From positions 1 through 35,267 of the IMG/VR virus record IMGVR_UViG_3300042887_001132: 35,267 bases of DNA; one strand, written 5' to 3'. The DNA comes from a virus. This document shows, piece after piece, positions 3,904 through 33,554 of this stretch. A model generated the notes under the pieces. It ran no database searches. It had not been told where the DNA came from and worked only from the letters and a program-made list of their open reading frames with translations. A program made the translations under genes and the position numbers. Each line of letters begins with the position of its first letter. The stretch's first letter is position 1.

Positions 3904-4074
3904 ATGACACTATCAGGATACACATACCAAATTGGTGATTTATTTACAACAAGCAAGACAGGCGTTACAGGTCGTATCGCTGGCTTTGAGCCAATGTCTA
4001 ATAAGGTTACTAGAGTTAGCCTAGTCCTAGCAAATGGCTCACGCCGTTTGGCTATGGTCAAGACCTCTAAGTAA
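3904..4074 (+). CDS. small beta-barrel-like protein, paralog of 4180
   Basis: 56-residue protein YQIGDLFTTSKTGVTGRIAGF... that aligns along its length with the product of 4180-4344 (shared GDLxTTxKxxVTGxIxxxEP...V.L..NG). Both look like five-strand barrels comparable to ribosomal KOW-type folds. Each has its own promoter and leader. Ribosome site GGAAAGG upstream. Role unknown. Confidence 0.75.
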   Translation: MTLSGYTYQIGDLFTTSKTGVTGRIAGFEPMSNKVTRVSLVLANGSRRLAMVKTSK

Positions 4075-4082
4075 TCTCAAAA

Positions 4083-4135
4083 TGTGAGAAATGTCAGATT
4101 TCGATTTGACATTTTTACAGGCAAAATGTTATACT
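4083..4135 (+). promoter_or_regulatory. CRP/GlxR-type site 6 (one mismatch) and promoter
   Basis: TGTGA-N6-TCAGA at 4083-4098; TTGACA (4106-4111), 18 bp, TATACT (4130-4135). Predicted start about 4142, site centre about -51.5. Drives 4180-4344. Confidence 0.55.
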
Positions 4136-4179
4136 TAGGTATAACCAAATAACAACCCCTAAACAGAAAGAAGGAAATA

Positions 4180-4344
4180 ATGTCAGTAGCAACAGCAACT
4201 TACAAAGTCGGAGACCTCTACACAACACAGAAGTCAAAGGTCACAGGAACAATCGTAGCGATTGAGCCACAGGCTAACGGAAATGTTCGTGTAAAGTTAG
4301 ATGTAAATGGTTCAGCCCGTTACACAACTTGGACGGCTAAGTAG
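4180..4344 (+). CDS. small beta-barrel-like protein, paralog of 3904
   Basis: 54-residue protein YKVGDLYTTQKSKVTGTIVA... clearly related to 3904-4074. Preceded by GAAGGAAA. I recall similar proteins in other actinophages with unknown function. Single-gene unit: own promoter upstream, hairpin copy B directly after (4360). Confidence 0.75.
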   Translation: MSVATATYKVGDLYTTQKSKVTGTIVAIEPQANGNVRVKLDVNGSARYTTWTAK

Positions 4345-4359
4345 TCTAACTATCTTGTT

Positions 4360-4384
4360 CCTGAGTATGAATTAAAACTGCTCA
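4360..4384 (+). repeat. 25-nt mini-hairpin element, copy B
   Basis: CCT + GAGTA + 11-nt loop ending AAAAC + TGCTC; the T of GAGTA makes a G:U pair in RNA. Starts 15 nt after the stop at 4344, just ahead of the next promoter. Confidence 0.8.
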
Positions 4385-4395
4385 CTTCCCCAAAA

Positions 4396-4417
4396 TGTCA
4401 GACCCACCCCCTATAAT
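4396..4417 (+). promoter_or_regulatory. TGTCAG-N10 promoter for 4450
   Basis: TGTCAG (4396-4401), 10 bp, TATAAT (4412-4417), with the same AAAATGTCAGNCCC surroundings as at 199 and 1115. Leader of about 26 nt ending in AAAAGGAAA before the ATG. Confidence 0.7.
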
Positions 4418-4449
4418 AGAAATACCCCACAACAGAAAAGGAAAAACAA

Positions 4450-4875
4450 ATGGCTAGAGGAAAAGCAATCTCAGTTAAAATCGCAACACCAAAGGTAATC
4501 AAGGCACTAGAGCAAGCACTAGCAAAACTAGAACTTGACTACACATCACAAGAAGCAAACGAAGCAAAGTATAACAAGGCTATGGAAAAGTGGAAAAAGG
4601 AAGTTAGTGCTTATGCTATCGCTAACATCAAGAAGGCAGAAAACTTCCGCACAAACTTTCGTTCTTGGAACGGAACACTTAACATTGACTTTGACCTAAC
4701 AGGTCTTTCAGAGTCAGACTTGCCAAAAGAACCAACTAAGGATTTTGAGTCAATGTCTGTCTATAACTATCGTGAGCAGAAAGAGGAAATTGCTAACGCA
4801 ATTCGTATCCTCAAGATGACAGATGAGGAAACAGTTAATACCTCAACTTACAACGCAGTAGCCCGTTATCTATAA
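4450..4875 (+). CDS. conserved phage protein (141 aa)
   Basis: 141-residue, Lys- and Glu-rich protein. The N-terminal half is predicted helical or coiled coil (residues about 15-65), followed by a short acidic linker and a second helical part ending YNAVARYL. No membrane segment or catalytic motif seen. Single-gene unit framed by a TGTCAG promoter and hairpin copy C. Function unknown. Confidence 0.75.
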   Translation: MARGKAISVKIATPKVIKALEQALAKLELDYTSQEANEAKYNKAMEKWKKEVSAYAIANIKKAENFRTNFRSWNGTLNIDFDLTGLSESDLPKEPTKDFESMSVYNYREQKEEIANAIRILKMTDEETVNTSTYNAVARYL

Positions 4876-17726: not shown

Positions 17727-17751
17727 CCTGGGTATGACTTAAAACTACCCT
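17727..17751 (+). repeat. 25-nt mini-hairpin element, copy G (covaried stem)
   Basis: CCT + GGGTA + TGACTTAAAAC + TACCC. Both stem strands differ from copies A-F yet pair perfectly, which is direct covariation. It sits between converging ahpD and sulfotransferase genes. Confidence 0.8.
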
Positions 17752-18484
17752 ATTTCCCTGCCCAAAATAAAGAATCATTTTCGTATATCTCTTTATCTAG
17801 TTTAAAGTTTTCAAGTATTGAATCTTTTTCGCTTTGATCTAAAGAATTAAATAATCTTTCTGAAGCATCATTTTTAAAATATGTTTTATTAATTTGTGAC
17901 AAATCAATATTTAGTTCTACGCCTAAGTCTTCTGATATTTTTTTAACCAATAACTCATAGTCCATAGACTCTAACTCATCAGTCCTAATAAATAGATTTG
18001 TTCTATTAATTCTGTCATATATCAACTCTGTATCATATTCTTTTTCTTCAGCATGAAAGAATTGTGCCTCTTTGATAACCGACATTGCTGCTGGATCTGG
18101 GCTTAAAGCAAAGTTATGAGATTGAAAGTCTTTAATGTATGGCCATGTAGATAACTTTTCAAACAGTTCTTCTTTTTCAACATGAAGATTTTCTCCATTG
18201 ATTGTATGCCAGTTTTCTTTGTCTATTAAGTCTGCTCTACCTGCTGCAGCATGGCATACTGAACTAACAAAAAATTCTACAGGCTCTCTAAAAACTGAAA
18301 TCACATATGTTTCATCATCTATAAAGAATGGCCAACCACCGTGTTGTCTCATGTCTTCTGGCATTCTTAGATACTCAATACCGTGCTTGGCAAGAGTCTC
18401 TTCCATAGGTCTAAGAATATACTTTGTTAAGAATCTGCCACCAGTTTTTGGTATGTGTAAAAAATAAACTTTATTGTATTTCAT
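17750..18484 (-). CDS. sulfotransferase family protein (244 aa)
   Basis: 244-residue Sulfotransfer_2-like enzyme: FLHIPKTGGRFL is the 5'-phosphosulfate loop (about residues 8-19), and ISVFREPVEFFVSS the 3'-phosphate-binding arginine-serine motif. It would transfer sulfate from PAPS to a carbohydrate or other hydroxyl acceptor. A second sulfotransferase (28391) and an APS kinase (27076) are in the same strand block, so PAPS supply and use may both be phage-assisted. The ATG follows the TAA of the upstream 42-aa gene directly. Confidence 0.82.
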   Translation of the reverse strand: MKYNKVYFLHIPKTGGRFLTKYILRPMEETLAKHGIEYLRMPEDMRQHGGWPFFIDDETYVISVFREPVEFFVSSVCHAAAGRADLIDKENWHTINGENLHVEKEELFEKLSTWPYIKDFQSHNFALSPDPAAMSVIKEAQFFHAEEKEYDTELIYDRINRTNLFIRTDELESMDYELLVKKISEDLGVELNIDLSQINKTYFKNDASERLFNSLDQSEKDSILENFKLDKEIYENDSLFWAGK

Positions 18485-19463: not shown

Positions 19464-20507
19464 CTACTTTGAACTTATCTCTGCTGCTCTTGCTTTTGAG
19501 AACTTTAGCATGGTCCCTCTGATTGGGGAGTAGCCAAGATCTTCAGCCTTCTTCCCACAGGTATCGAGCATAAAGTTAAAGAACTTTTTAACTGAATCAT
19601 TCTTTGAGTTCTTTTCTTTGTATGCTACGCCGTAGGTAAATGTGGATATGTTATAGGATAGTTTGTTGGGGTTTTTATAGTTAATCTTAACTACACCACT
19701 CTTATCTGGAACAAAGTCTCCAAGGAATACTGACGCTGCACTTACTGTTGGCTGTATAAACCTTCCAGCCTCATTCTCAACAGACACTGTCTTTAATCCT
19801 CTTGCATATGATATCTCGTTATATCCGATAGATCCATTTGTAGTTCCCTGTACCATTGCAATACCATGAGATCCAGAAGCACTGGTCATATAACTCTTAG
19901 ATATATCTCCAGGGAATGCAGTACCAAAGTTTTTATTCCCTGGCTTGTTCCATATAGTTGGAGCAACTGCATTAAGGTATGAAGTAAAAACCTCTGATGT
20001 TCCAGAACCATCAATACGGTATACAACTCTAATTTTTGTTGCTGGTATCTTAGGTAGTCTTGTTCCTATCATGTTTTCTTTTAGTATCTGTGGATCATTC
20101 CACATTGTTATTTGTCCCGCAAAAACTTTGGCAAGTGTATCTTTACTCATCTTAATAGTAACTCTATACCCATCAAGTTTATAGATTACTCCAATTGGTC
20201 CTGCTACCAATGGAACATATGTAAATTCTTTTGATGGCTTAACTTCTGATCCAGAGTAAGGAACATCTGACATAGCAAAGTCTGTTACTCCATTTGAAAA
20301 CATATTCTTTCCAGCACCTGAGCCAGATGCTCCATACACAACAGAATCTCCTGTTGATTTCATAAATTCGACCCTGCATCTGTCTATAAAGTTAGCAGCA
20401 AATGTGGATCCAGCACCTTGAAGGTTATCAGCATGTGAAGGGGTAATAAAAAAAGCATTAGCAAATATGGCTAATGCTACTGGCAAAGCAATGAATTTAA
20501 ATTTCAT
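19464..20507 (-). CDS. pstS: PstS phosphate-binding protein, leaderless (347 aa)
   Basis: 347-residue periplasmic-type phosphate-binding protein. Signal peptide MKFKFIALPVALAIFANAFF with cleavage likely after PSHA; no lipobox cysteine. Mature protein has GAGSTF, YGASGSGAGKNMF, FAMSDVPYS, YRIDGSGTSEVFTSYL and GSIGYNEISYA, the phosphate-contact loops of PstS. Normal length. No PstCAB nearby, so it would feed the host transporter or capture phosphate. The start at 20507 is supported by TATACT plus 6 nt. pstS is known from aquatic phages as an auxiliary gene in phosphate limitation. No pho box recognised. Confidence 0.92.
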   Translation of the reverse strand: MKFKFIALPVALAIFANAFFITPSHADNLQGAGSTFAANFIDRCRVEFMKSTGDSVVYGASGSGAGKNMFSNGVTDFAMSDVPYSGSEVKPSKEFTYVPLVAGPIGVIYKLDGYRVTIKMSKDTLAKVFAGQITMWNDPQILKENMIGTRLPKIPATKIRVVYRIDGSGTSEVFTSYLNAVAPTIWNKPGNKNFGTAFPGDISKSYMTSASGSHGIAMVQGTTNGSIGYNEISYARGLKTVSVENEAGRFIQPTVSAASVFLGDFVPDKSGVVKINYKNPNKLSYNISTFTYGVAYKEKNSKNDSVKKFFNFMLDTCGKKAEDLGYSPIRGTMLKFSKARAAEISSK

Positions 20508-20582
20508 ACTTATAGTATATAGGACAAGAGTGTAAAGTTTTGTTATAAATGGTAAACTAAGAATTAACTTTAGATGAATAAT

Positions 20583-20607
20583 GGAGCATTTTATAGACTT
20601 ACTCAGG
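20583..20607 (-). repeat. 25-nt mini-hairpin element, copy I
   Basis: CCT + GAGTA + AGTCTATAAAA + TGCTC on the minus strand. Directly 3' of the structured RNA candidate at 20608-20686 and about 76 nt before the pstS start. Confidence 0.75.
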
Positions 20608-20698
20608 TCTCCCAAGGTGCGACCTTGGCTTATCCGTACTCAGCAATAAGGTTGCTATAAGCAACTGCATGTATCATGACGGAATAGTATCTATTATA
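20608..20698 (-). ncRNA. candidate structured RNA upstream of pstS
   Basis: TATAAT (20698-20693), 6 nt, predicted start at 20686. The RNA closes with TCCGT/ACGGA, holds a perfect CCAAGGT-CGC-ACCTTGG hairpin, and in the middle two mutually exclusive hairpins share one strand: GTTGC-TTATA-GCAAC or AGCAA-CCTTA-TTGCT. It is followed by mini-hairpin copy I. Alternative pairing suggests a switch or attenuator, but pstS has its own leaderless promoter downstream, so an independent RNA is equally likely. Confidence 0.5.
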
Positions 20699-21011: not shown

Positions 21012-21170
21012 CTAGGATATTATTTTTGTTAGTACTGTAAAACCAATCCATAGACCAATAATTCCTGCGACTCCCGCAAAAACTGGTGGTGCTGGTACTG
21101 GCAATTTGAATGCAGCAAATACTACGCCACATCCAAAACCTGTTAATACTGATAAGATTACATCTTTCAT
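21012..21170 (-). CDS. XapX-domain membrane protein (52 aa)
   Basis: 52 residues with LTGFGCGVVFAAFKLPVPAP, then PVFAGVAGIIGLWIG: the XapX domain, two short membrane helices around a KLPVPAPP turn. Function of the domain is unknown. ATGA overlap with the monooxygenase gene upstream; the holin-like gene follows. A small membrane protein next to a holin could modulate lysis (inference). Confidence 0.8.
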   Translation of the reverse strand: MKDVILSVLTGFGCGVVFAAFKLPVPAPPVFAGVAGIIGLWIGFTVLTKIIS

Positions 21171-22048
21171 TTTTTATTTTCCTCTACATATTGTTTGATA
21201 AATGGAAGTATAACATTTACTTCTTCTGACGGAACTGCATTAATAAGCATATGATTTATGCCTCTACTTTCAAGAGTCTTTACAAGATCATCAAACTGCT
21301 CGTATGTTAGGTAAGCAGTATCAAGAACTGGCTGTGGAACCTCTCCCTTTTTCCAAACTGGTCTGACAACATGGTCTACCAATAGGTTAAGTTCTTCTTC
21401 TGTTTTTCTAATAACAGGTGTAATTGCAATCATTACCTCCATACCTTTTAATTCAAGAGGAATTTCTGCAGAACGATGTTTTAAGAAATCAGACCATGCC
21501 CCACGAGCATATATGTGGTATGGCAAAATAATTTTGTGACCATATTTTTTTGCTGCTTCAAAAACATAACTGTTTGTTGTTGAGACATAAACATCTAACT
21601 TATTTTTGTGGTTTGGGTCACGCCAGTATCCTGGAGAATCTTTATCTTGGTCCATATCATTTAACACTTTAAGAAATTCTATCATGTAGTTTGATCTGTC
21701 AAGAGCACTTGCGTTATCATTGACATCTCCAACAACACCACCAACACCATCTTCATGATCTTTTATATACCCAGAGATTAAGTTAATCTGCAGTCTGCCT
21801 CTATCTATCCTATCCATAGATCTATTGATCATAGAGAGGTACTGAGGAGATATTGTGTATGGGCGAATTGCAACTAAGTATTTAATCCCTTCGCCTTGCT
21901 CTATATCTTTTGCTGTCTTTACAAACATGTCTCCCTCTGGGATATCATGTGTAAACATTACTCCAGAAAAGTTATGGTTATTCAAATTGGATGGGTCTTT
22001 TGGATCTTCAGGATTGCCCATCACTCCACCAAAATAATAAAACTTCAC
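21167..22048 (-). CDS. luciferase-like (LLM-class) flavin monooxygenase 1 (293 aa)
   Basis: 293-residue TIM-barrel protein with YLVAIRPYTISPQYLSMINR and SMDRIDRGRLQINLISG, the RP..(S)P..(A)..I.(T)(L)D.(I)S.GRL.(L)N...G signature of the bacterial-luciferase/SsuD superfamily. Members oxidise alkanesulfonates, nitriloacetate or other compounds with FMNH2 or F420; the substrate is not readable. GTG start at 22048, overlapping the previous small gene as GTGA. A second paralog lies at 28965. Rare in phages as far as I know. Confidence 0.82.
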   Translation of the reverse strand: MKFYYFGGVMGNPEDPKDPSNLNNHNFSGVMFTHDIPEGDMFVKTAKDIEQGEGIKYLVAIRPYTISPQYLSMINRSMDRIDRGRLQINLISGYIKDHEDGVGGVVGDVNDNASALDRSNYMIEFLKVLNDMDQDKDSPGYWRDPNHKNKLDVYVSTTNSYVFEAAKKYGHKIILPYHIYARGAWSDFLKHRSAEIPLELKGMEVMIAITPVIRKTEEELNLLVDHVVRPVWKKGEVPQPVLDTAYLTYEQFDDLVKTLESRGINHMLINAVPSEEVNVILPFIKQYVEENKK

Positions 22049-24781: not shown

Positions 24782-25066
24782 TTAGACCCAATACTTAATT
24801 ATAGCAGTTGCTGCAAGAATTGACCAAATTATGTTAAACCAGATAATTGTTGGCAATGTCTTTACTGTTGATGACCAGATCAAAGAAAGACTGGTTATTA
24901 GTGCAAAGATGTATAGCCACCAAAACTGTACACCAAAAATAAGACCTGGAACAATGATTGCTGCCTTTGTCATAAATGCAAAAAACTCTACTGTATTTGG
25001 CAGATTCCAATAAGACCTGTGTCGCATTGTCTTTAATGCATTTATCCATTCTGTCCTAAACTTCAC
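24782..25066 (-). CDS. three-span membrane protein (94 aa)
   Basis: 94 residues with hydrophobic segments at about 28-45, 47-65 and 70-90, rich in Trp, and a basic amphipathic N-terminus (RTEWINALKTMRHR). ATGA overlap with the halogenase gene places it last in the tailoring operon. Function unknown. Confidence 0.65.
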   Translation of the reverse strand: MKFRTEWINALKTMRHRSYWNLPNTVEFFAFMTKAAIIVPGLIFGVQFWWLYIFALITSLSLIWSSTVKTLPTIIWFNIIWSILAATAIIKYWV

Positions 25067-26607
25067 TTTAATCCCTCCAAAAATTCTCTATGGTCTGTAC
25101 ATTCTGACACCTTGTAGTCTTGATATTTTTTGTAATAGTCATACATGTCAACACCCTTTTTATAATCCGCAGAATTTTCGATATAAGTTTTTGCAATATC
25201 TTTATTTATTGTCTTATGTGCAGACCCCACAAAGGTCCAACTATTTGATGACCAATGCTCTCCAGAGTCAAATTTATTTGGAAGTCTTACCTTCCACTTA
25301 TCAATCTTTTCCTGCAAATCTTTTGGAGCATTTTCGTATGAAAATTTTTGCCAAAACTCTGTGTCATTTCTTAATGTCATGTAGTGGAAATATATAAAAT
25401 CAGAAACGTTGTTATTCATATTAACAATGTTCTTATTAAACTCTTCTCTGACCTCTTTTGAATTTTCAAATAGCCATAGTGGGTTGTCGAATATCTGTGT
25501 TAACTCCACAATGCTAACCCAAATAGACGTTGCCTCAAGTGGCTCAACAAAGTTTGCTGCAAGGCCTACTGCTACACAGTTGTTAACCCATGGCTCCTCA
25601 TAACATCCAGCACTAAACTTAAAGCCACCCTTATCTTTTCTTGGGTATGTTGGCTCGTAGCCCAAGAACTCTTCTATCTCTTTTGCTGCTTCTTCTTCAG
25701 AGATCAAAGATGAATCATATACATACCCACAACCAAACCTAGTCTGAAGTGGTATCTTCCACATCCATCCATACTTCATTGCAATTGCTTCTGTGTAAGA
25801 AGGAATTTTATCTTCCATATCAACAAAGAATGGAAGGGCAGAATCAACTGGAAGAAAGTCTTTATAACTTTTCCACTTTGGATTATAAACTTTGCCAATG
25901 ATTAGTCTATGGAATCCGCTACAGTCAAAAACAAAATCACAGTGGATCTTCTCATTGTTATCTAGGACCAAACTCTTTACATAATCTTTTTCATCTAGCA
26001 AGACATCTTTTATTGTGCCATCAACTAGTTTAATTCCTCTTTCTGTGCCTATCTCTTTTAGTCTCTCTGCTAGTTTAGTTGCATTAAAATGTATAGAAAC
26101 ATTGCCTATTTTTTTGTAATCATTAATGGGATCTTTATTAGCAACAAACCCAAAATCTCTCTTGCTTGCTTCTAAAATAAAAGGAACCTTCTTGGCTTCT
26201 GAAATTTTTTCTGTAAAGTCTATGTTCTTTACGCTATTATTTATGGCAATGCTTGCTGCAATTAGGGGACTATTGGAAAGGTATCTGTCATACACAGCGT
26301 CAAAGCCTAAAGATCTATCCGTTGTGGAAAATGCATGGTAATAAAATTCTCCATCGTTATTCCAGTTTGTAAACTTAATTCCATTCTTAATAGTTGCGTC
26401 ACAGTTTCTTATCAGATCAGAAAGAGGTATGTTTAGATGGTCAAAAAAGTCTGCAAGGTATGGGGTTGATCCTTCTCCTGCACCCAAGATTCCTATATCC
26501 TTTGACTCAATTACTGTTATGTCTAAGTCTGGGTATGATCGTTTTGCTTTAAGTGCAGTAAGCCACCCAGCAGTTCCTCCACCAACAACAACTATCTTCT
26601 TTGTCAT
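25063..26607 (-). CDS. flavin-dependent tryptophan-halogenase-like protein (514 aa)
   Basis: 514-residue FAD-dependent halogenase (PrnA/RebH type): dinucleotide fold VVVGGGTAGW (6-15), GEGSTP (44-49), candidate catalytic Lys78 (or Lys74) in IKNGIKF, and the diagnostic WxWxIP motif WMWKIP (281-286). GLAANFVEPLEATSIWVS completes FAD binding. Typical length. Such enzymes chlorinate or brominate tryptophan or related rings using FADH2; reductase and substrate are not identified. It sits in a chain of overlapping genes with a sulfotransferase and hydroxylase. Confidence 0.88.
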   Translation of the reverse strand: MTKKIVVVGGGTAGWLTALKAKRSYPDLDITVIESKDIGILGAGEGSTPYLADFFDHLNIPLSDLIRNCDATIKNGIKFTNWNNDGEFYYHAFSTTDRSLGFDAVYDRYLSNSPLIAASIAINNSVKNIDFTEKISEAKKVPFILEASKRDFGFVANKDPINDYKKIGNVSIHFNATKLAERLKEIGTERGIKLVDGTIKDVLLDEKDYVKSLVLDNNEKIHCDFVFDCSGFHRLIIGKVYNPKWKSYKDFLPVDSALPFFVDMEDKIPSYTEAIAMKYGWMWKIPLQTRFGCGYVYDSSLISEEEAAKEIEEFLGYEPTYPRKDKGGFKFSAGCYEEPWVNNCVAVGLAANFVEPLEATSIWVSIVELTQIFDNPLWLFENSKEVREEFNKNIVNMNNNVSDFIYFHYMTLRNDTEFWQKFSYENAPKDLQEKIDKWKVRLPNKFDSGEHWSSNSWTFVGSAHKTINKDIAKTYIENSADYKKGVDMYDYYKKYQDYKVSECTDHREFLEGLK

Positions 26608-26810
26608 TACTTTCTACCCCACTGTATATAGTTCCATCCACGCTCATGTGCGTAGTAAATAAATACCTTAACTACCGTTTCCCAAAATGCAATTGTAACA
26701 GATAAAGAAGCATTTTTTGTAATGACGTAAGCAACTGCTACAGAGGAAAGTGTTCCCCATATACGATAACTTAGTGCCTTAGCAAATGATCTTGCCTTTG
26801 TTACTGTCAT
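26607..26810 (-). CDS. DUF2061 membrane protein 1 (67 aa)
   Basis: 67 residues: KARSFAKALSYRIWGTLSSV, second helix, then YAHERGWNYIQWG, matching DUF2061 (two membrane helices, HERxW near the end). ATG at 26810 overlaps the upstream paralog as ATGA. One of three paralogs. Function of the family unknown. Confidence 0.78.
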   Translation of the reverse strand: MTVTKARSFAKALSYRIWGTLSSVAVAYVITKNASLSVTIAFWETVVKVFIYYAHERGWNYIQWGRK

Positions 26811-27010
26811 TCTTTGCCCCAAGATACAGAATTCCAGATTCTTTCATGGTAGTAGTAAGCAACAAAGTTAACACCATTTGTTATAAGGGTTGCAAGTGTT
26901 GCCATATTGATATCCTTGCTTAGTGCGTACAATGTTATGAACGTTGTCAATAAAGCAACAACTCTCCATGTCAAAGACTTGGCAAGAGATCTACTTTTCT
27001 TTACGCTCAT
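26807..27010 (-). CDS. DUF2061 membrane protein 2 (67 aa)
   Basis: 67 residues, same length and plan as its neighbour: KSRSLAKSLTWRVVALLTTF ... YYHERIWNSVSWG. GGAG 7 nt before ATG 27010. Tandem duplication with 26607-26810. Confidence 0.8.
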   Translation of the reverse strand: MSVKKSRSLAKSLTWRVVALLTTFITLYALSKDINMATLATLITNGVNFVAYYYHERIWNSVSWGKE

Positions 27011-27119
27011 TTTTATCTCCAAACATTATTCGCTCTTCTGCTTCGTTCATTAAACGACCAGACTCTTCTAAGTAATTAAATGCCCATTTGCTTGCGTTTT
27101 TCAGTAGCCGAAATAGCAT
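26991..27119 (-). CDS. nested 42-aa helical protein
   Basis: Frame MLFRLLKNASKWAFNYLEES then charged residues to KNERKEK, overlapping the end of the APS-kinase gene (44 nt) and the start of the DUF2061 gene (20 nt). GGGGG precedes the ATG, as for 24076. Amphipathic helix. It fills the gap between those genes, which supports it. Confidence 0.5.
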   Translation of the reverse strand: MLFRLLKNASKWAFNYLEESGRLMNEAEERIMFGDKNERKEK

Positions 27120-27834
27120 GAATATCTGCCCCCAAGTCTACTTGCTCAATCTTATATCCTACATCACGACCATAAACAATGTTGGTGATGTTAGGTAGTC
27201 TTAGTACTAATGCACCATCCATAAACTCATCCTTAGCAATGTAACCCTTTACCTGATCAAAGGTAAGTGGGTCCTTCTCGCTTGTATTGTAGGTGTTACG
27301 GACTCCAAGTAGCACCTGCTCTGTTCTCTTCCCTGCCTCTTTGTAAAGGGCGTGGTGGCCTTCGTGCCAAGGCTGGTACCTACCCAGCATAAGGGTTGTA
27401 GGGGCTGTCCAGTCGTGTAACTGGCAAGCAGCAATGATAAGGTCAGCCTCTTCTTCTACCGTCATCCCACAGGGGATTCTGACATCGCAGGACTCTGGAT
27501 CTTCCCACATCTTATTTGTGTCTTCAAATCTTCCAGACTCAATTCTGTCTACCCAGATTAAAATATCTGGCTTTCCAAATGCTGCACGGGTTAGATCTGT
27601 TGGGCATACAAAGTCAACGATTACTGGTGCAACACCCTGCTTAGCAATAAGTCTTGCCATATCCCCCATGCGTCTTGCCTGCTCAATTCTATCTTCAGGA
27701 CTAAAGCCTAAATCTGAATTCACAGTTGCACGAACCTCATCTGCATTAAGATGGATAGCGTTAATTCTTTCTTTGAGTGCCTTAGATAACTCTGTCTTAC
27801 CTGCACCTGGTAGACCAATAATCTGAATAATCAT
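27076..27834 (-). CDS. APS kinase fused to NMNAT-like nucleotidyltransferase (252 aa)
   Basis: 252-residue two-domain protein. Residues 1-about 140: P-loop GLPGAGKT (7-14), then HLNADEVRATVNSDLGFSPEDR, EQARRMGDMARLIAKQG, the adenylylsulfate kinase (CysC) pattern that makes PAPS. Residues about 147-252: GRYQPWHEGH (151-160) and ISATEKR (241-247), the HxGH and ISxTxxR motifs of cytidylyltransferase-fold enzymes, nearest to the NadM-type GRFQPFHxGH. PAPS is the donor for the two sulfotransferases here. The second domain may be NMN adenylyltransferase or an ATP-sulfurylase stand-in; undecided. ATGA overlap with the hydroxylase. Confidence 0.82.
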   Translation of the reverse strand: MIIQIIGLPGAGKTELSKALKERINAIHLNADEVRATVNSDLGFSPEDRIEQARRMGDMARLIAKQGVAPVIVDFVCPTDLTRAAFGKPDILIWVDRIESGRFEDTNKMWEDPESCDVRIPCGMTVEEEADLIIAACQLHDWTAPTTLMLGRYQPWHEGHHALYKEAGKRTEQVLLGVRNTYNTSEKDPLTFDQVKGYIAKDEFMDGALVLRLPNITNIVYGRDVGYKIEQVDLGADIHAISATEKRKQMGI

Positions 27835-28394
27835 TTTTTTTCTAACTCCTCGTTTGGCATTATGTCAATAAGCAAATGAATTCTATCTATATCACTATTG
27901 TTTTCTACAAGGTGTGGTCTTGAGTTGTTAATTTCCCAACACTCTCCAGCCTGCATGCTGATCTTTTCATTTCCAACACCAAAGAAAACATTGTCAGATG
28001 TAACGATTGGAATATGATTTCTTTTAGATAGCATCAGGTAGTCTCCAGAGTCAAAGTGAATCGATATATCTTCTCTGGCCTTTAGTTTAATTAAGAGGAC
28101 CATTCCTCTAACACCGTCATGAATTTCTTCTAGGTTTTTAATGATAGGCTCAAGAAGATCAATCAACTTAGTGTCATCAGATTCTCGTCTTGTTGAAAAC
28201 TCTTGACCACTCTTCCATTGCAGGTTTGCTCTATATACAAAATATGAGACAGTATCCTTGTGAACATCATAGTTATCTTGTCTTGATGTGTCTAGCAACC
28301 ACTGACTAGAAAAGTCTGAAACATAATCTTTTATCTCATCAATGTTATATGTGTTATGCTTTTTAAAGTTAAAGTCTTCTAGCGTCTTTCTCAT
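27831..28394 (-). CDS. Asp/Asn beta-hydroxylase-like 2OG oxygenase (187 aa)
   Basis: 187-residue cupin resembling the aspartyl/asparaginyl beta-hydroxylase (Asp_Arg_Hydrox) group: SIHFDSGDYLMLSKRNHIPI, then GECWEINNSRPHLVENN and DIDRIHLLID, which supply the two metal histidines and the 2OG-binding Arg of that family. Substrate unknown. ATGA overlaps on both sides with the sulfotransferase and APS-kinase genes make joint expression nearly certain. Confidence 0.78.
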   Translation of the reverse strand: MRKTLEDFNFKKHNTYNIDEIKDYVSDFSSQWLLDTSRQDNYDVHKDTVSYFVYRANLQWKSGQEFSTRRESDDTKLIDLLEPIIKNLEEIHDGVRGMVLLIKLKAREDISIHFDSGDYLMLSKRNHIPIVTSDNVFFGVGNEKISMQAGECWEINNSRPHLVENNSDIDRIHLLIDIMPNEELEKK

Positions 28395-28975
28395 TTTGTC
28401 TCCAAGGTTTTATTGAAGTCTTTAGAATACGCAAAGTTCATAAAGTCAGAACTGTAAAAATCCTGGACCATTTCTATTGCCTCATCTGTATAGTCTTCTA
28501 TATATGATTCTACCACATAGTTGCCTACGTTGTAAAATCCAAGCGTCCATCCAAGTTCTTCTTCTAACTCCTTCAAGTTCTCAAACCTATAGAGTCTGTC
28601 TACCTGAACGGCATCCTGATCAATTACATAAAAAGACTGAGGTATATGAAGCAGTGGGCTAATTGTAGATATCTTTCCCTGTTTAATATTGTCTAAGTAC
28701 TCTGAAAATGAGATGTTTGTTTGATTAGTTTTATTATATTGTTTATAGCAACTGTATGTTCTCGTGTATGGATTTCTTACAACAGCAAAAGAAAAGATGC
28801 TATCGTCTATTGTGTTGGCTTCTTTTAAATATGAGTATGGATCGTGGTGCCTTGGCCATTCTCTTTTCCAATTATCTAGATTGTTTTCATCTAGTATTTT
28901 AGAAATAGAGGACCCTGCAGTCTTTGGTATGTGAACAAACAGCACTGCACTATATTCTTTGCCTTTAATTATCAT
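28391..28975 (-). CDS. sulfotransferase family protein 2 (194 aa)
   Basis: 194-residue Sulfotransfer_2-like enzyme: LFVHIPKTAGSSISKIL (5'-PSB loop) and FAVVRNPYTRTYSCY (3'-PB motif), both intact. Different from the copy at 17750 in length and most of the sequence. ATG at 28975 is preferred to 28990 for its smaller overlap with the monooxygenase gene and the GAGG upstream. It would use PAPS from the kinase two genes downstream. Confidence 0.85.
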   Translation of the reverse strand: MIIKGKEYSAVLFVHIPKTAGSSISKILDENNLDNWKREWPRHHDPYSYLKEANTIDDSIFSFAVVRNPYTRTYSCYKQYNKTNQTNISFSEYLDNIKQGKISTISPLLHIPQSFYVIDQDAVQVDRLYRFENLKELEEELGWTLGFYNVGNYVVESYIEDYTDEAIEMVQDFYSSDFMNFAYSKDFNKTLETK

Positions 28976-29804
28976 TTTGTGCAGCCTCACTATTTATTTC
29001 TTTAACAAGTTTATTTACCATCATGTCGTTGTTCTGGTTCCAAGCATCATCAAAGTTAGTTGTATTGGTAAATAGTAGTAGGTCGGTTATTCCTTCATCT
29101 TTTAAATTAATTATTTGCTGTTTGACTGTTTCATAGTTTCCAATTATTGACCAGCCTAAGAACCTAGGGTTAAAAACAGAAGTCTTTTCTTTATACTCTT
29201 TAATCTCTTCATCTGATTCTAGAATAGTAGCGTTAGCACTAACCATTCGTTTTTCAATACCCTCAAACTTTTCTATATTCTCTCTGTAGGTGTCTAGCAT
29301 ACACAAAGATGTGCCATTGAACATTCTTACAGTATCTAGAGCATAGTCAGAAAAACCACTAAAGACCATCCGTGGTCTTATTTTTGTTGGGCAATACATT
29401 TTATACCTGTCTATAAAACTTCTCAAGTAGGTAGTTCTTTTTTGAATGGTATCGACTGATTCTGACTCTCCAAAGATGTCAAACTCTAGTTGTGGTTCGT
29501 CTTCTCTAGTATGAAAGTCCCCAGCAACCCAATTAAATACAAGTCTATTGCTATCTATTTGATCATAGCCTATAGTCATCATTCCAGCATACTGAGCACT
29601 TACATGGTATGGCCTTAAAGCAATCATATACTTTAGTTTGTTGCCAGGAACAATGCAAGCAGCAGATTTTATAAAGTAATCTGCCTGCTGTGAATGAAAG
29701 GTAAGCAAGACCGAATCGTATCCAGAATCTTCTAGCCTATGAGAGAGATCTTTTAATTGCTTTACGTCGCAATGTTGATCTCTCAACATATAGTGAATTT
29801 TCAT
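28965..29804 (-). CDS. luciferase-like (LLM-class) flavin monooxygenase 2 (279 aa)
   Basis: 279-residue TIM-barrel protein: DSGYDSVLLTFHSQQADYF, YMIALRPYHVSAQYAGMM, NRLVFNWVAGDF and a C-terminal SIIGNYETVKQQIINL, which are LLM superfamily blocks. Related to but clearly diverged from the paralog at 21167. It heads the coupled tailoring genes after the zinc protein at 29804. May hydroxylate or desulfonate a substrate; unknown. Confidence 0.8.
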   Translation of the reverse strand: MKIHYMLRDQHCDVKQLKDLSHRLEDSGYDSVLLTFHSQQADYFIKSAACIVPGNKLKYMIALRPYHVSAQYAGMMTIGYDQIDSNRLVFNWVAGDFHTREDEPQLEFDIFGESESVDTIQKRTTYLRSFIDRYKMYCPTKIRPRMVFSGFSDYALDTVRMFNGTSLCMLDTYRENIEKFEGIEKRMVSANATILESDEEIKEYKEKTSVFNPRFLGWSIIGNYETVKQQIINLKDEGITDLLLFTNTTNFDDAWNQNNDMMVNKLVKEINSEAAQNDN

Positions 29805-30022
29805 TACTGGGCTAGTTTTTCTCGCTCATCAATAACGCTGATCATAAATGACATCATGCTATTGTAGCCATCTGGAATAGCCATGATTTTATTGTAGTGG
29901 TGGCCACAAAACATAAGGTCACCAGTAATACCAGTAACCTTGACCAAGGCCTCTGCATTGCATCTATCGCAACGATCCTTTGGAGACAGTTGCCACTCTT
30001 GCTTTACCTCATCTTTAATCAT
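29804..30022 (-). CDS. DUF7455-type zinc protein, leaderless (72 aa)
   Basis: 72 residues: LSPKDRCDRCNAEALVKVTG then LMFCGHHYNK, the DRCDRCxAxAxV...LxFCGHH pattern of the DUF7455 zinc-ribbon family of actinobacteria and their phages. TATAAT with 7 nt to the ATG at 30022 sets the start. Ends in TAATG with the monooxygenase, so it heads the tailoring operon. Function unknown. Confidence 0.85.
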   Translation of the reverse strand: MIKDEVKQEWQLSPKDRCDRCNAEALVKVTGITGDLMFCGHHYNKIMAIPDGYNSMMSFMISVIDEREKLAQ

Positions 30023-30221: not shown

Positions 30222-30332
30222 TTACTTAGATTTTTTCTTTTCTTTTACAGTCCAGATAGGGGCATTGAGTTTATCTCCACCCCATTCATATCCAAGTAAT
30301 TTTACTACTGCTCTAATTATTTTAATACGCAT
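30222..30332 (-). CDS. small basic protein (36 aa)
   Basis: 36 residues, MRIKIIRAVVKLLGYEWGGD, then a Lys-rich end. TAATG overlap with the DUF2061 gene upstream and tight junction downstream support it. Function unknown. Confidence 0.6.
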   Translation of the reverse strand: MRIKIIRAVVKLLGYEWGGDKLNAPIWTVKEKKKSK

Positions 30333-30532
30333 TACTTTATCTTCTTTCCGAACTTTGCCCAGACTCGCTCATGTAAGAAATATCCAAGTGCTTCCCATCC
30401 AATGTATAGTAGTGCACCAAGAGATGCGTACTCCCACTCACCAGTGAAAAGATAGATTACTCCAGCAACACCAACAAGGTGAAATGTTTCCCAACTTAGT
30501 GTCTTAAGCAGTGTTCTCTTAGTTGATTCCAT
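30332..30532 (-). CDS. DUF2061 membrane protein 3 (66 aa)
   Basis: 66 residues: KRTLLKTLSWETFHLVGVAG, second helix, YFLHERVW: DUF2061 again, a third diverged copy. Coupled to the endolysin gene by TAATG, so a lysis-related or membrane role is possible. Confidence 0.78.
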   Translation of the reverse strand: MESTKRTLLKTLSWETFHLVGVAGVIYLFTGEWEYASLGALLYIGWEALGYFLHERVWAKFGKKIK

Positions 30533-31245: not shown

Positions 31246-32037
31246 TTATATTTTTACTAGGGATGGATTAAGGGCAGACTTTGCTCCTGCAATAGCCTTT
31301 TCAATTTCAGAACAAACAAAGGCAAACTCTTCTTCAAAGATTTCTGGAGATCTGTCAGGTCCCATCGCTGGGCTCTTTCCTTCTGCAATCATTGCTTCCT
31401 TTAGAGTTTTTTCGATGTCATAGTTTAAGACTGTACATGTAAAGTGCTTCATCACATATCCATCTTTATCAATTAAATACTTCTCGTAATTGCCACCCAT
31501 TTGAACTCCATCATAGAATCCAATGTTTAGCCAAGGTGACTTAAATTTTCCTTCAACATTGCCATCCTCTAGAGAGTCTCTCATTGATCGCAACTGATCC
31601 ATCTGTGATGAAATTTCTGCATATACTTCGTGAGGTGGTAGTGTTGGCTGTCCTAGACCGTTAGTTCCAGCGCCAAGTCCATTGTCTAAAACTTCGTTTA
31701 GCAACTCATGAGGAACCGAAGAAACCATCTCTGAGTACTTAAAGGTTGTGTTATAAATTTCTTCTCCGTAAGCCTTTGAGTCTAGACCGCAAGTAATTCC
31801 TTGTGACCACTTTCCTTTAGTAACTCCTGGACCACAATAATCGTTTGTTGGAATTGCAATAATCTCAAAATCTTCGCTATTGTACTTATCTTGAAGCATC
31901 TGCAAAACTTCTAGTTGGTTGGCGTTTCCACAACCGACTGTAGTATTGGCAACTAGAGTAACCTTGCCTTTGTATTGGTCAAGGTGATTTGGTGTGCCTT
32001 CTGCAGAGTTTAGGGGGATGTCGTAGATTGGTTTCAT
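31246..32037 (-). CDS. glutathione-peroxidase-like protein, leaderless (263 aa)
   Basis: 263 residues. The first 80 follow the GPx pattern: LNSAEGTPNHLDQYKGKVTL, VANTTVGCGNANQ with Cys36 at the peroxidatic position, FEIIAIPTNDYCGPG. C-terminal DGYVMKHF is the last GPx strand. About 90 residues are inserted between, making it longer than usual (about 160). Most bacterial GPx enzymes use thioredoxin. Third predicted peroxidase of the window. TATAAT with 6 nt to ATG 32037; the longer frame to 32112 is rejected for that reason. Confidence 0.78.
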   Translation of the reverse strand: MKPIYDIPLNSAEGTPNHLDQYKGKVTLVANTTVGCGNANQLEVLQMLQDKYNSEDFEIIAIPTNDYCGPGVTKGKWSQGITCGLDSKAYGEEIYNTTFKYSEMVSSVPHELLNEVLDNGLGAGTNGLGQPTLPPHEVYAEISSQMDQLRSMRDSLEDGNVEGKFKSPWLNIGFYDGVQMGGNYEKYLIDKDGYVMKHFTCTVLNYDIEKTLKEAMIAEGKSPAMGPDRSPEIFEEEFAFVCSEIEKAIAGAKSALNPSLVKI

Positions 32038-32123
32038 GACTATATTATAGCACATTTTATGACTTATTTTAGGCTGACATGACTGACCAACTGTGTCTTT
32101 TCTATCATACAATATATTGACAA

Positions 32124-32789
32124 TTAGTTGTCCATACTCTTATATAACTGCTTTAGGCCTTTTAGTGTTCCTATATCCATATACTTACCCCCTGGCCTTA
32201 CAGCCAAAATGTTAGAGCCGTCTTGTATCCATTCTTTTAGTTGTTTTCCTGGGTGCTCTAGTTCTGGATTTAAATATCTGATCATATTTTTACGAAACAG
32301 CATTGTCCCCCACATATCTGGATAATCACAATTCTCTGTTTTGTCTTCTGAGGATAGGACTTTATTTCCTGAAATCTGAACCTGCCCTACACGACCTTTT
32401 AGTTCATCCCCACACTCCCAAACACCAAGAACTAAGTCTGCGTTTGTTTCTTTAAACATTTCTTTATATATGTTTCCTTGAGCATTAAGTATGTATGTAT
32501 CTGGCATTCCAACCAAAACAGTATCGTTATATTCTCCGATCATAAACTTAATTGCCTCAGACATTGTTGATGGCTCATGAACAATAAGTTTAATATTCAT
32601 ATTCATGTTCTCAACAATTGGAACCCACTCTGATCGTGTAGACACACGAACTTCGTCACAGAACTCAAGCATTTGCTCTACATGCCACTGTAGCAAAGAT
32701 CTCTCATCAGATATTGGCAAACAAAATTTTGGTATGCCACCGACTCTTGATGACCTTCCAGATGCTGGTAGTACTCCAATTATAGCCAT
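32124..32789 (-). CDS. sugar-phosphate nucleotidyltransferase (221 aa)
   Basis: 221-residue GT-A fold NTP-transferase: GVLPASGRSSRVGGIPKFCL is the nucleotide loop, VLVGMPDTY the metal-binding strand, DMWGTMLFRK and GKYMDIGTLKGL the C-terminal part. Activates a sugar-1-phosphate. The start at 32789 is chosen because the motif must be N-terminal. Overlaps the upstream glycosyltransferase gene by 10 nt, so the pair probably makes and transfers one sugar. Confidence 0.82.
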   Translation of the reverse strand: MAIIGVLPASGRSSRVGGIPKFCLPISDERSLLQWHVEQMLEFCDEVRVSTRSEWVPIVENMNMNIKLIVHEPSTMSEAIKFMIGEYNDTVLVGMPDTYILNAQGNIYKEMFKETNADLVLGVWECGDELKGRVGQVQISGNKVLSSEDKTENCDYPDMWGTMLFRKNMIRYLNPELEHPGKQLKEWIQDGSNILAVRPGGKYMDIGTLKGLKQLYKSMDN

Positions 32790-33445
32790 TCCTGAGCCCT
32801 TCTTACTTCCAAATCCCAATAACCAGTGACCTCAAAGTTTTGACTTTCTTTTAACATGTAATATTCTTTATTGTATAAACTTGTTTTTCCATATTTTTCT
32901 TTTAATTTTTTATCACTTTCTACTGTTGTCCCTGATCCGTTAGGACTAGTAACATCAAAATATTTATTATCAAATGATAAATGCTTTCCGTTTTCTTGCT
33001 TCATTACACGGAAAAGTCTTTCACGATAGTCATCGTCTTCAAATGAATACGGGTAGAAGCGTTCATCAAACAATCCAACTTTTCTTACCACATCTTCTCC
33101 AATAGAAAAACAACTAAACCCCTCGCTTGATGTTACTAAGGATGACTCATTGCTAATTTCAGATAATAACTTTAGTGATCCTGAAACCCAATACGTATCT
33201 GCCGAAGTAAATACCCAATACTTTTCATGAGGATATAGTTTAATAGTTAGATTCCAGGAACCAGACATGCCCAAGTTTGATGGAAGATTCAAAACTCTAA
33301 TATTTAAATCTGTTCTGCTTGGAACATACTTTTCTAAACCATTATTTATTATTAAAATTTCTTTGATTGGAAAATCTATTGACTTTAGGCTTTCATCTAG
33401 TAGGTCATACCTATTTAATACTGGAATAGATAATACAGGTATCAC
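32780..33445 (-). CDS. family-2-like glycosyltransferase (221 aa)
   Basis: 221 residues: VLSIPVLNRYDLLDESLKSI, ILIINNGL, VLNLPSNLGMSGSWNL, YWVFTSADTYWV (DxD-like metal site), VGLFDERFYPYSFEDDDY (acceptor-side acidic cluster). Family 2 layout. GTG at 33445 follows AAAAGGAGA; an ATG-started longer frame to 33511 would cover the tRNA-Asn and is rejected. It might glycosylate a virion protein, DNA base or host surface. Confidence 0.8.
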   Translation of the reverse strand: MIPVLSIPVLNRYDLLDESLKSIDFPIKEILIINNGLEKYVPSRTDLNIRVLNLPSNLGMSGSWNLTIKLYPHEKYWVFTSADTYWVSGSLKLLSEISNESSLVTSSEGFSCFSIGEDVVRKVGLFDERFYPYSFEDDDYRERLFRVMKQENGKHLSFDNKYFDVTSPNGSGTTVESDKKLKEKYGKTSLYNKEYYMLKESQNFEVTGYWDLEVRRAQEWL

Positions 33446-33481
33446 AGATTCTCCTTTTAAGTCTTTGTCTATTGTATCATG

Positions 33482-33554
33482 CTGCCCCACCTGGCCTCGA
33501 TCCAGGGACATCCGAATTAACAGTTCGGCACTCTACCATCTGAGTTATAGGGCA
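33482..33554 (-). tRNA. tRNA-Asn (anticodon GTT)
   Basis: Acceptor TGCCCTA with TGGGGCA (one T:G), discriminator G, anticodon arm CCGAA-CTGTTAA-TTCGG, T arm CCTGG-ATCGAGG-CCAGG. The T-loop starts with A instead of T, unusual. Mini-hairpin copy H ends 2 nt before its 5' end. Confidence 0.85.

Follow-up and report, generated by a model that had tools for sequence, protein, structure and literature searches.

The window analysed here is the whole of virus record IMGVR_UViG_3300042887_001132, a 35.3-kb stretch with 38% GC, whose minus strand carries a compact cassette of enzyme genes between positions 30022 and 24782. In transcription order the genes encode DUF7455, a small zinc-ribbon-like protein; LLM, a luciferase-like flavin-dependent monooxygenase; ST, a sulfotransferase; AspH, an aspartyl/asparaginyl β-hydroxylase-like enzyme; KIN, an adenosine 5´-phosphosulfate (APS) kinase-like domain fused to a nucleotidyltransferase domain resembling nicotinamide mononucleotide adenylyltransferases (NMNATs); the small membrane proteins DUF2061a and DUF2061b; HAL, a flavin-dependent halogenase; and TM3, which has three hydrophobic spans. 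All enzyme genes named in an earlier, model-generated description of this DNA (the original prediction) are present, and all window features given below lie on the minus strand. Read from the sequence, seven junctions overlap by 1–11 nt: DUF7455/LLM by 1 nt, LLM/ST by 11 nt (from the ATG start at 28975), ST/AspH, AspH/KIN and DUF2061a/DUF2061b by 4 nt each, DUF2061b/HAL by 1 nt, and HAL/TM3 by 4 nt (GTGA). The prediction that nearly all junctions overlap in this way is borne out by these seven and fails at KIN/DUF2061a, where a 65-nt gap (27075-27011) interrupts the pattern. TM3 is separated from the next gene by 10 nt. DUF7455 (29804..30022; PF24254, E 2.4e-14) is a conserved backbone gene just upstream; cassette-free loci also have it, so it is not specific to the cassette.

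Relatives were collected in five scans of viral contigs (IMG/VR contigs of up to 120 kb), which returned 209 loci; 102 remained after dereplication, 63 of them with anchor genes on both sides. The gene order of the cassette is conserved in many freshwater phage contigs. ST is followed by AspH in 30/30 cases and HAL by TM3 in 48/51; in 84/87 cases a DUF2061 gene comes after KIN, either at once or behind a short open reading frame (ORF) termed p42. The enzyme genes have median ratios of nonsynonymous to synonymous substitution rates (dN/dS) of 0.08-0.21, which indicates purifying selection, and their catalytic motifs are near-invariant across 31-87 sequences. Broken copies among the relatives amount to two of LLM and one of KIN. 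The cassette thus exceeds a chance assemblage: its genes and their order are shared by many relatives, selection is purifying, and the intact catalytic residues suggest active enzymes, in line with the original prediction. The 42-aa p42 (26991..27119), listed there as an operon member, is probably not a gene. It was not counted: 44 nt of it lie within KIN, only 13/63 dereplicated loci have it, and its median dN/dS is 0.59; the overlap and the ratio also speak against a real protein or a peptide precursor.

ST (28391..28975, starting at ATG 28975 or GTG 28990) matches the Sulfotransfer_2 family PF03567 with 30.8 bits (cut-off 22) and phrog_3347 with E 2.4e-14. Its motifs HIPKTAGSS and VVRNPYTRTYS, for binding the 5´-phosphosulfate and 3´-phosphate of 3´-phosphoadenosine 5´-phosphosulfate (PAPS), are nearly invariant in 31 sequences, and its dN/dS is 0.16. 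A second sulfotransferase-like protein, ST2 (244 aa, 17750..18484; phrog_3347, E 1.1e-4), with IPKTGG and FREPxxxxxSS motifs, was found in 8/8 long contigs carrying ST. AspH (187 aa, 27831..28394) is a 2-oxoglutarate/Fe(II) enzyme by its match to PF05118 (E 6.9e-13; 49.2 bits, cut-off 22.6). The iron triad HxD...H and the 2-oxoglutarate-binding Arg, namely H113, D115, H161 and R171, are invariant in 38 sequences (dN/dS 0.13).

HAL (514 aa, 25063..26607) matches the Trp_halogenase family PF04820 with E 7e-103 and 345 bits, far above the cut-off of 21. The motifs GGGTAGW (GxGxxG) and GWMWKIP (WxWxIP) and the catalytic residues Lys74 and Glu358 are conserved, and all but the first are invariant in 47 sequences. 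Its best matches in the PDB are tryptophan 5-/6-halogenases; VirX1, a cyanophage flavin-dependent halogenase (PDB 6qgm), is also matched. The family score and these residues place HAL among the flavin-dependent halogenases. TM3 (94 aa, 24782..25066; dN/dS 0.12), which adjoins HAL and whose hydrophobic spans were read from the sequence, had no match in family searches with Pfam, phrog and further family profiles. A cellular cluster as donor of these genes was sought and discarded: the nearest halogenases found on genome contigs share 30-45% identity, and no other gene of the window lies beside the 80 best.

LLM (279 aa, 28965..29804; dN/dS 0.19) gives a weak Pfam match; by sequence it comes closest to MsuD and SsuD. 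In structure searches with its AlphaFold model (pLDDT 86), SsuD, MsuD and the dimethylsulfone monooxygenase SfnG rank first, led by E. coli SsuD (1m41, E 2.7e-12). LLM shares the fold of these enzymes but is shorter, 15-18% identical and far under the family cut-off; its score against the alkanesulfonate monooxygenase equivalog TIGR03565 (E 2.3e-9) is 36.8 bits against a cut-off of 518, so that the fold alone agrees with SsuD. LLM2 (293 aa, 21167..22048; PF00296, E 8.6e-6, just under the cut-off; dN/dS 0.11), a second luciferase-like monooxygenase, accompanies LLM in 16/16 loci. The operon does occupy the predicted interval, 24782-30022, but the set reaches further, since ST2 and LLM2 lie outside it.

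KIN (252 aa, 27076..27834; dN/dS 0.083) matches the phage family phrog_10255 over its full length (E 7.7e-61). Structure prediction, which had been proposed as a check of the fusion, gave a model with pLDDT 90.6 and an APS-kinase fold in the N-terminal part; the best PDB structure matches are APS kinases, to which the N-terminus is also closest by sequence (PF01583, 55 bits, cut-off 21). The P-loop GLPGAGKT is conserved, as are F44 and R49 of the GF...DR substrate region, and the LGFSPEDR region matches APS kinases. A profile of the C-terminal part matches NMNATs (MJ0541, E 2.2e-9, over the N-terminal part of MJ0541 only). Its HEGH (HxGH) and ISATEKR (ISxTxxR) motifs are essentially conserved, and it scores 18.6 bits against PF01467, under the cut-off of 21. 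A miniature ATP sulfurylase, suggested by a YGRDVGY motif, was rejected when the profile search returned NMNATs and no ATP sulfurylase. KIN shares with PAPS synthetase, in which APS kinase is fused to ATP sulfurylase, the kinase fold and the kinase-then-nucleotidyltransferase order, but differs in its short NMNAT-like C-terminus. One KIN copy (L088:8001-8759, plus strand) has an internal stop codon, and at L271, L274, L280 and L285 (KIN region ~4000-4800) the two domains are apparently encoded by two adjacent, unfused ORFs. In a search of 296 actinobacterial genomes for full-length KIN, the matches listed covered only the kinase part.

The two DUF2061 proteins belong to PF09834: DUF2061a (26807..27010, ORF also open from TTG 27022; E 3.4e-15), with a conserved YYxHERxW motif, and DUF2061b (26607..26810, ORF also open from TTG 26822; E 1.1e-15). 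A third DUF2061-like gene (30332-30532) lies near the endolysin gene and is present in most relatives. At L463 (3940-5914, plus strand), from a gammaproteobacterium, DUF2061 lies 4 nt behind an ATP sulfurylase/APS kinase fusion gene, and genes for a PIG-L deacetylase and a ROK protein are close by. Such a neighbourhood is not a bacterial rule: it was seen in 1/15 inspected and was lacking in the 14 others.

The hosts are very probably actinobacteria, judged from the gene content, because WhiB is present in 19/20 long contigs (among control genomes it occurs only in Corynebacterium) and because one relative has a terminase and a DnaE polymerase with ~54-55% identity to Streptomyces phage counterparts. 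Should the hosts be acI actinobacteria, which do not have assimilatory sulfate reduction (PMC5301498), the source of APS would be a problem.

We read the locus, at somewhat less than an even chance of being right, as a modular tailoring cassette that freshwater actinophages encode and that would act on a molecule made by the host, probably at the surface of the cell. KIN and DUF2061 would supply activated sulfate (PAPS), which ST and ST2 would transfer; AspH would hydroxylate, LLM and LLM2 would add flavin-dependent oxidation, and HAL, with TM3 as its membrane partner, would halogenate an electron-rich ring. AspH, HAL and LLM may act on one molecule shared with the sulfotransferases, and DUF2061 and TM3 may locate the work at the membrane. 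The host presumably makes the target: the window genes scanned, which comprise part of the ORFs, include no scaffold-building enzyme, and p42 is unsupported as a precursor. The benefit could lie in altering the surface of the infected cell, or the chemistry of what it excretes, against competing phages.

The distribution of the genes among the 63 loci bears on this reading. The most frequent state is KIN-DUF2061 by itself (22); 14 loci have the complete set, and 10 have the complete set minus LLM. ST implies both HAL and AspH (25/25 each), and HAL implies TM3 (32/33). Since ST occurs only where HAL is present, sulfation and hydroxylation are suggested to elaborate a halogenase-dependent product. 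When state changes were counted on a tree of backbone genes (8 for ST, 11 for HAL) and independent pairs were compared, HAL followed ST in ~5.5/8 pairs with none in the opposite direction (p 0.03), and AspH likewise followed ST (p 0.016). The ST-ST2, LLM-LLM2 and ST-LLM2 links, strong in raw counts, are not significant after this correction for ancestry, partly because many loci end before ST2.

The neighbours of KIN in phages unrelated to the window bear on whether it supplies PAPS. A search with a KIN homologue from a Xanthomonas phage returned 79 more loci in other phages; 55 remained after dereplication, 53 of them with a recognisable KIN. DUF2061 lies near KIN in 25/53 and a sulfotransferase, Sulfotransfer_2 and Sulfotransfer_3/1 types included, in 16/53, whereas 53 control terminase loci of aquatic T4-like phages contain neither (0/53 each). 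The difference is significant for DUF2061 (Fisher's test, p 1e-9) and for sulfotransferases (p 8e-6, with a bias favouring KIN loci, as two of the sulfotransferase profiles were made from KIN neighbours). KIN is a plausible PAPS supplier because it recurs beside DUF2061 and sulfotransferases in this way. Examples with differing sulfotransferase types are L275:2815-4995, L251:2265-4753 and L244:2524-4200, the last in the order KIN-sulfotransferase-DUF2061.

Fifteen distant KIN loci, and 0/53 control loci, encode a protein whose start, LPRxxS, looks like a sulfotransferase motif; the one tested has no Pfam family match. These proteins possibly form an undescribed sulfotransferase-like family. 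At UvdE loci the LPRxxS protein is present in 5/8 with KIN and in 1/30 without it; none of these 8 and 30 loci has a recognised sulfotransferase. The LPRxxS proteins next to KIN are ~210 aa long and start MYCIISLPRTAST or similar; their loci include L215 (3141-3776), L219, L221, L227 and L230.

Several observations weigh against the tailoring reading, both at the level of KIN and at that of the cassette. KIN scores 57.7 bits against the CysC equivalog TIGR00455, under the cut-off of 138.7, and has NADE in place of the DGDN motif of APS kinases; it is named APS-kinase-like, and not CysC, for these two reasons. Its C-terminus looks like an NMNAT by sequence, and such a domain is not needed for PAPS. 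HAL is found without ST in 8/63 loci, and HAL-TM3 also stands alone. Four KIN contigs of 103-114 kb have no recognised sulfotransferase, and a 120-kb contig (G009) has ST, AspH, HAL and TM3 adjacent to one another and no APS-kinase family match. The modules sometimes occupy separate positions within one genome. From these four KIN contigs and from G009 it follows that KIN can occur without the tailoring set, and the tailoring set without KIN; in KIN-free genomes host PAPS would have to serve. The cassette is therefore modular and optional, not one fixed pathway. The joint supply and use of PAPS that had been predicted is plausible from the neighbours of KIN, but a single obligatory pathway is not supported, as KIN-DUF2061 without a recognised sulfotransferase, HAL-TM3 without ST, and ST-AspH-HAL-TM3 without KIN all occur.

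This modularity invites the alternative that KIN-DUF2061, HAL-TM3, ST-AspH and LLM/LLM2 are independent cargo, serving separate functions and gathered at a site between DUF7455 and a nuclease gene that accepts such cargo. Each module is found elsewhere or without the others in some phages, and it agrees with this that KIN-DUF2061 alone is the most frequent state. The strict dependence of ST on HAL and AspH, which persists as co-gain after the correction for ancestry, argues in the other direction, as do ST2 and LLM2, which lie away from the operon yet track ST and LLM, and the direct adjacency of ST-AspH-HAL-TM3 in G009 without KIN. We consider this alternative rather doubtful.

The tailoring reading can also be widened into a phage-wide sulfation system, in which, across many phages unrelated to one another, the APS-kinase/NMNAT fusion and DUF2061 would feed PAPS to sulfotransferases that can be exchanged. 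Freshwater actinophages would have added to it a halogenase, sulfur-type monooxygenases and a hydroxylase for a halogenated, sulfated product. This wider form is offered tentatively, as a possibility well short of an even chance. If it is true, much of the phage cysC signal taken for sulfate assimilation would be sulfation; the association of an APS-kinase fusion with DUF2061 and several kinds of sulfotransferase puts that interpretation in question, and gives a hint that sulfation of some target is common in viral infections.

Another explanation leaves sulfation out altogether: KIN would serve NAD salvage, as a NadR-like kinase and NMNAT in reversed arrangement, and would help phages to rebuild NAD. 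The match of its C-terminus to NMNATs instead of ATP sulfurylase fits this, and so does the frequency of KIN in phages without recognised sulfotransferases. A distant KIN phage, DLP6, has a gene of the nicotinate phosphoribosyltransferase family. That gene was seen in DLP6 only, and in 0/13 related contigs, so salvage through the phosphoribosyltransferase was set aside. Moreover, the N-terminus resembles APS kinases by fold and by sequence, the LGFSPEDR region included, and sulfotransferases and DUF2061 recur beside KIN, not at control loci. NAD salvage appears unlikely on this evidence.

Least probable, and with little chance of being right, is sulfur acquisition, in which KIN and the SsuD-like LLM would boost host sulfate or sulfite for growth: LLM does resemble sulfonate-cleaving monooxygenases, phage cysC/cysH have been published as assimilatory sulfate reduction (PMC10914622) and acI actinobacteria are without that pathway (PMC5301498), but sulfotransferases use PAPS without reduction, and the halogenase and hydroxylase would be left unexplained. 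Consumption of PAPS by a phage PAPS reductase was rejected, as none was found in the 23 phage records searched, which argues for sulfate transfer rather than reduction.

Parts of the tailoring cassette have precedents, and the prediction that it was not previously known is right in part only. Virus halogenases, cyanophage halogenase-hydroxylase clusters and cysC-encoding freshwater phages are already known; the cassette adds sulfation. The jumbo cyanophage S-SSM6a carries a cluster for a halogenated amino acid/sugar metabolite, with a proposed role in surface decoration or as a secondary metabolite or antibiotic (PMC7824862). Like the cassette, it is virus-encoded and combines an amino-acid halogenase with 2-oxoglutarate/Fe(II) hydroxylases; unlike the cassette, it belongs to a phage of a cyanobacterial host, no sulfotransferase is mentioned, and its carbamoyltransferases and methylase are not among the window genes scanned. 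Tryptophan halogenase genes occur in 20/153 cyanophages (PMC10452541). VirX1 and HAL are phage members of the same superfamily, but HAL is closer to cellular tryptophan 5-/6-halogenases (243 bits, against 161 for VirX1) and is paired with TM3. Freshwater phages encoding cysC or cysH, read as assimilatory sulfate reduction, were described together with whiB actinophages (PMC10914622). They share with the cassette phages the freshwater habitat and an APS-kinase-family gene; in the cassette this gene is the compact KIN fusion beside sulfotransferases, and no PAPS reductase was found. In the open literature searched, no paper joined 'tryptophan halogenase', 'phage' and 'sulfotransferase', and neither the combination with sulfotransferases, nor the paired modules, nor the recurrent KIN-DUF2061-sulfotransferase link was found. 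With HAL and AspH linked to sulfation genes, virus-borne tailoring pathways would have a second case, outside the cyanophages.

Three further loci of the window were recorded. A glutathione-peroxidase-like gene (31246-32112) has relatives in 4/5 contigs with ST and in 0/4 contigs without it. A gene for a PstS-like phosphate-binding protein lies at 19464-20615. At 32124-33511 lie a glycosyltransferase-like gene and, after it, a gene for a MobA-like nucleotidyltransferase, which may work as a pair in sugar transfer.

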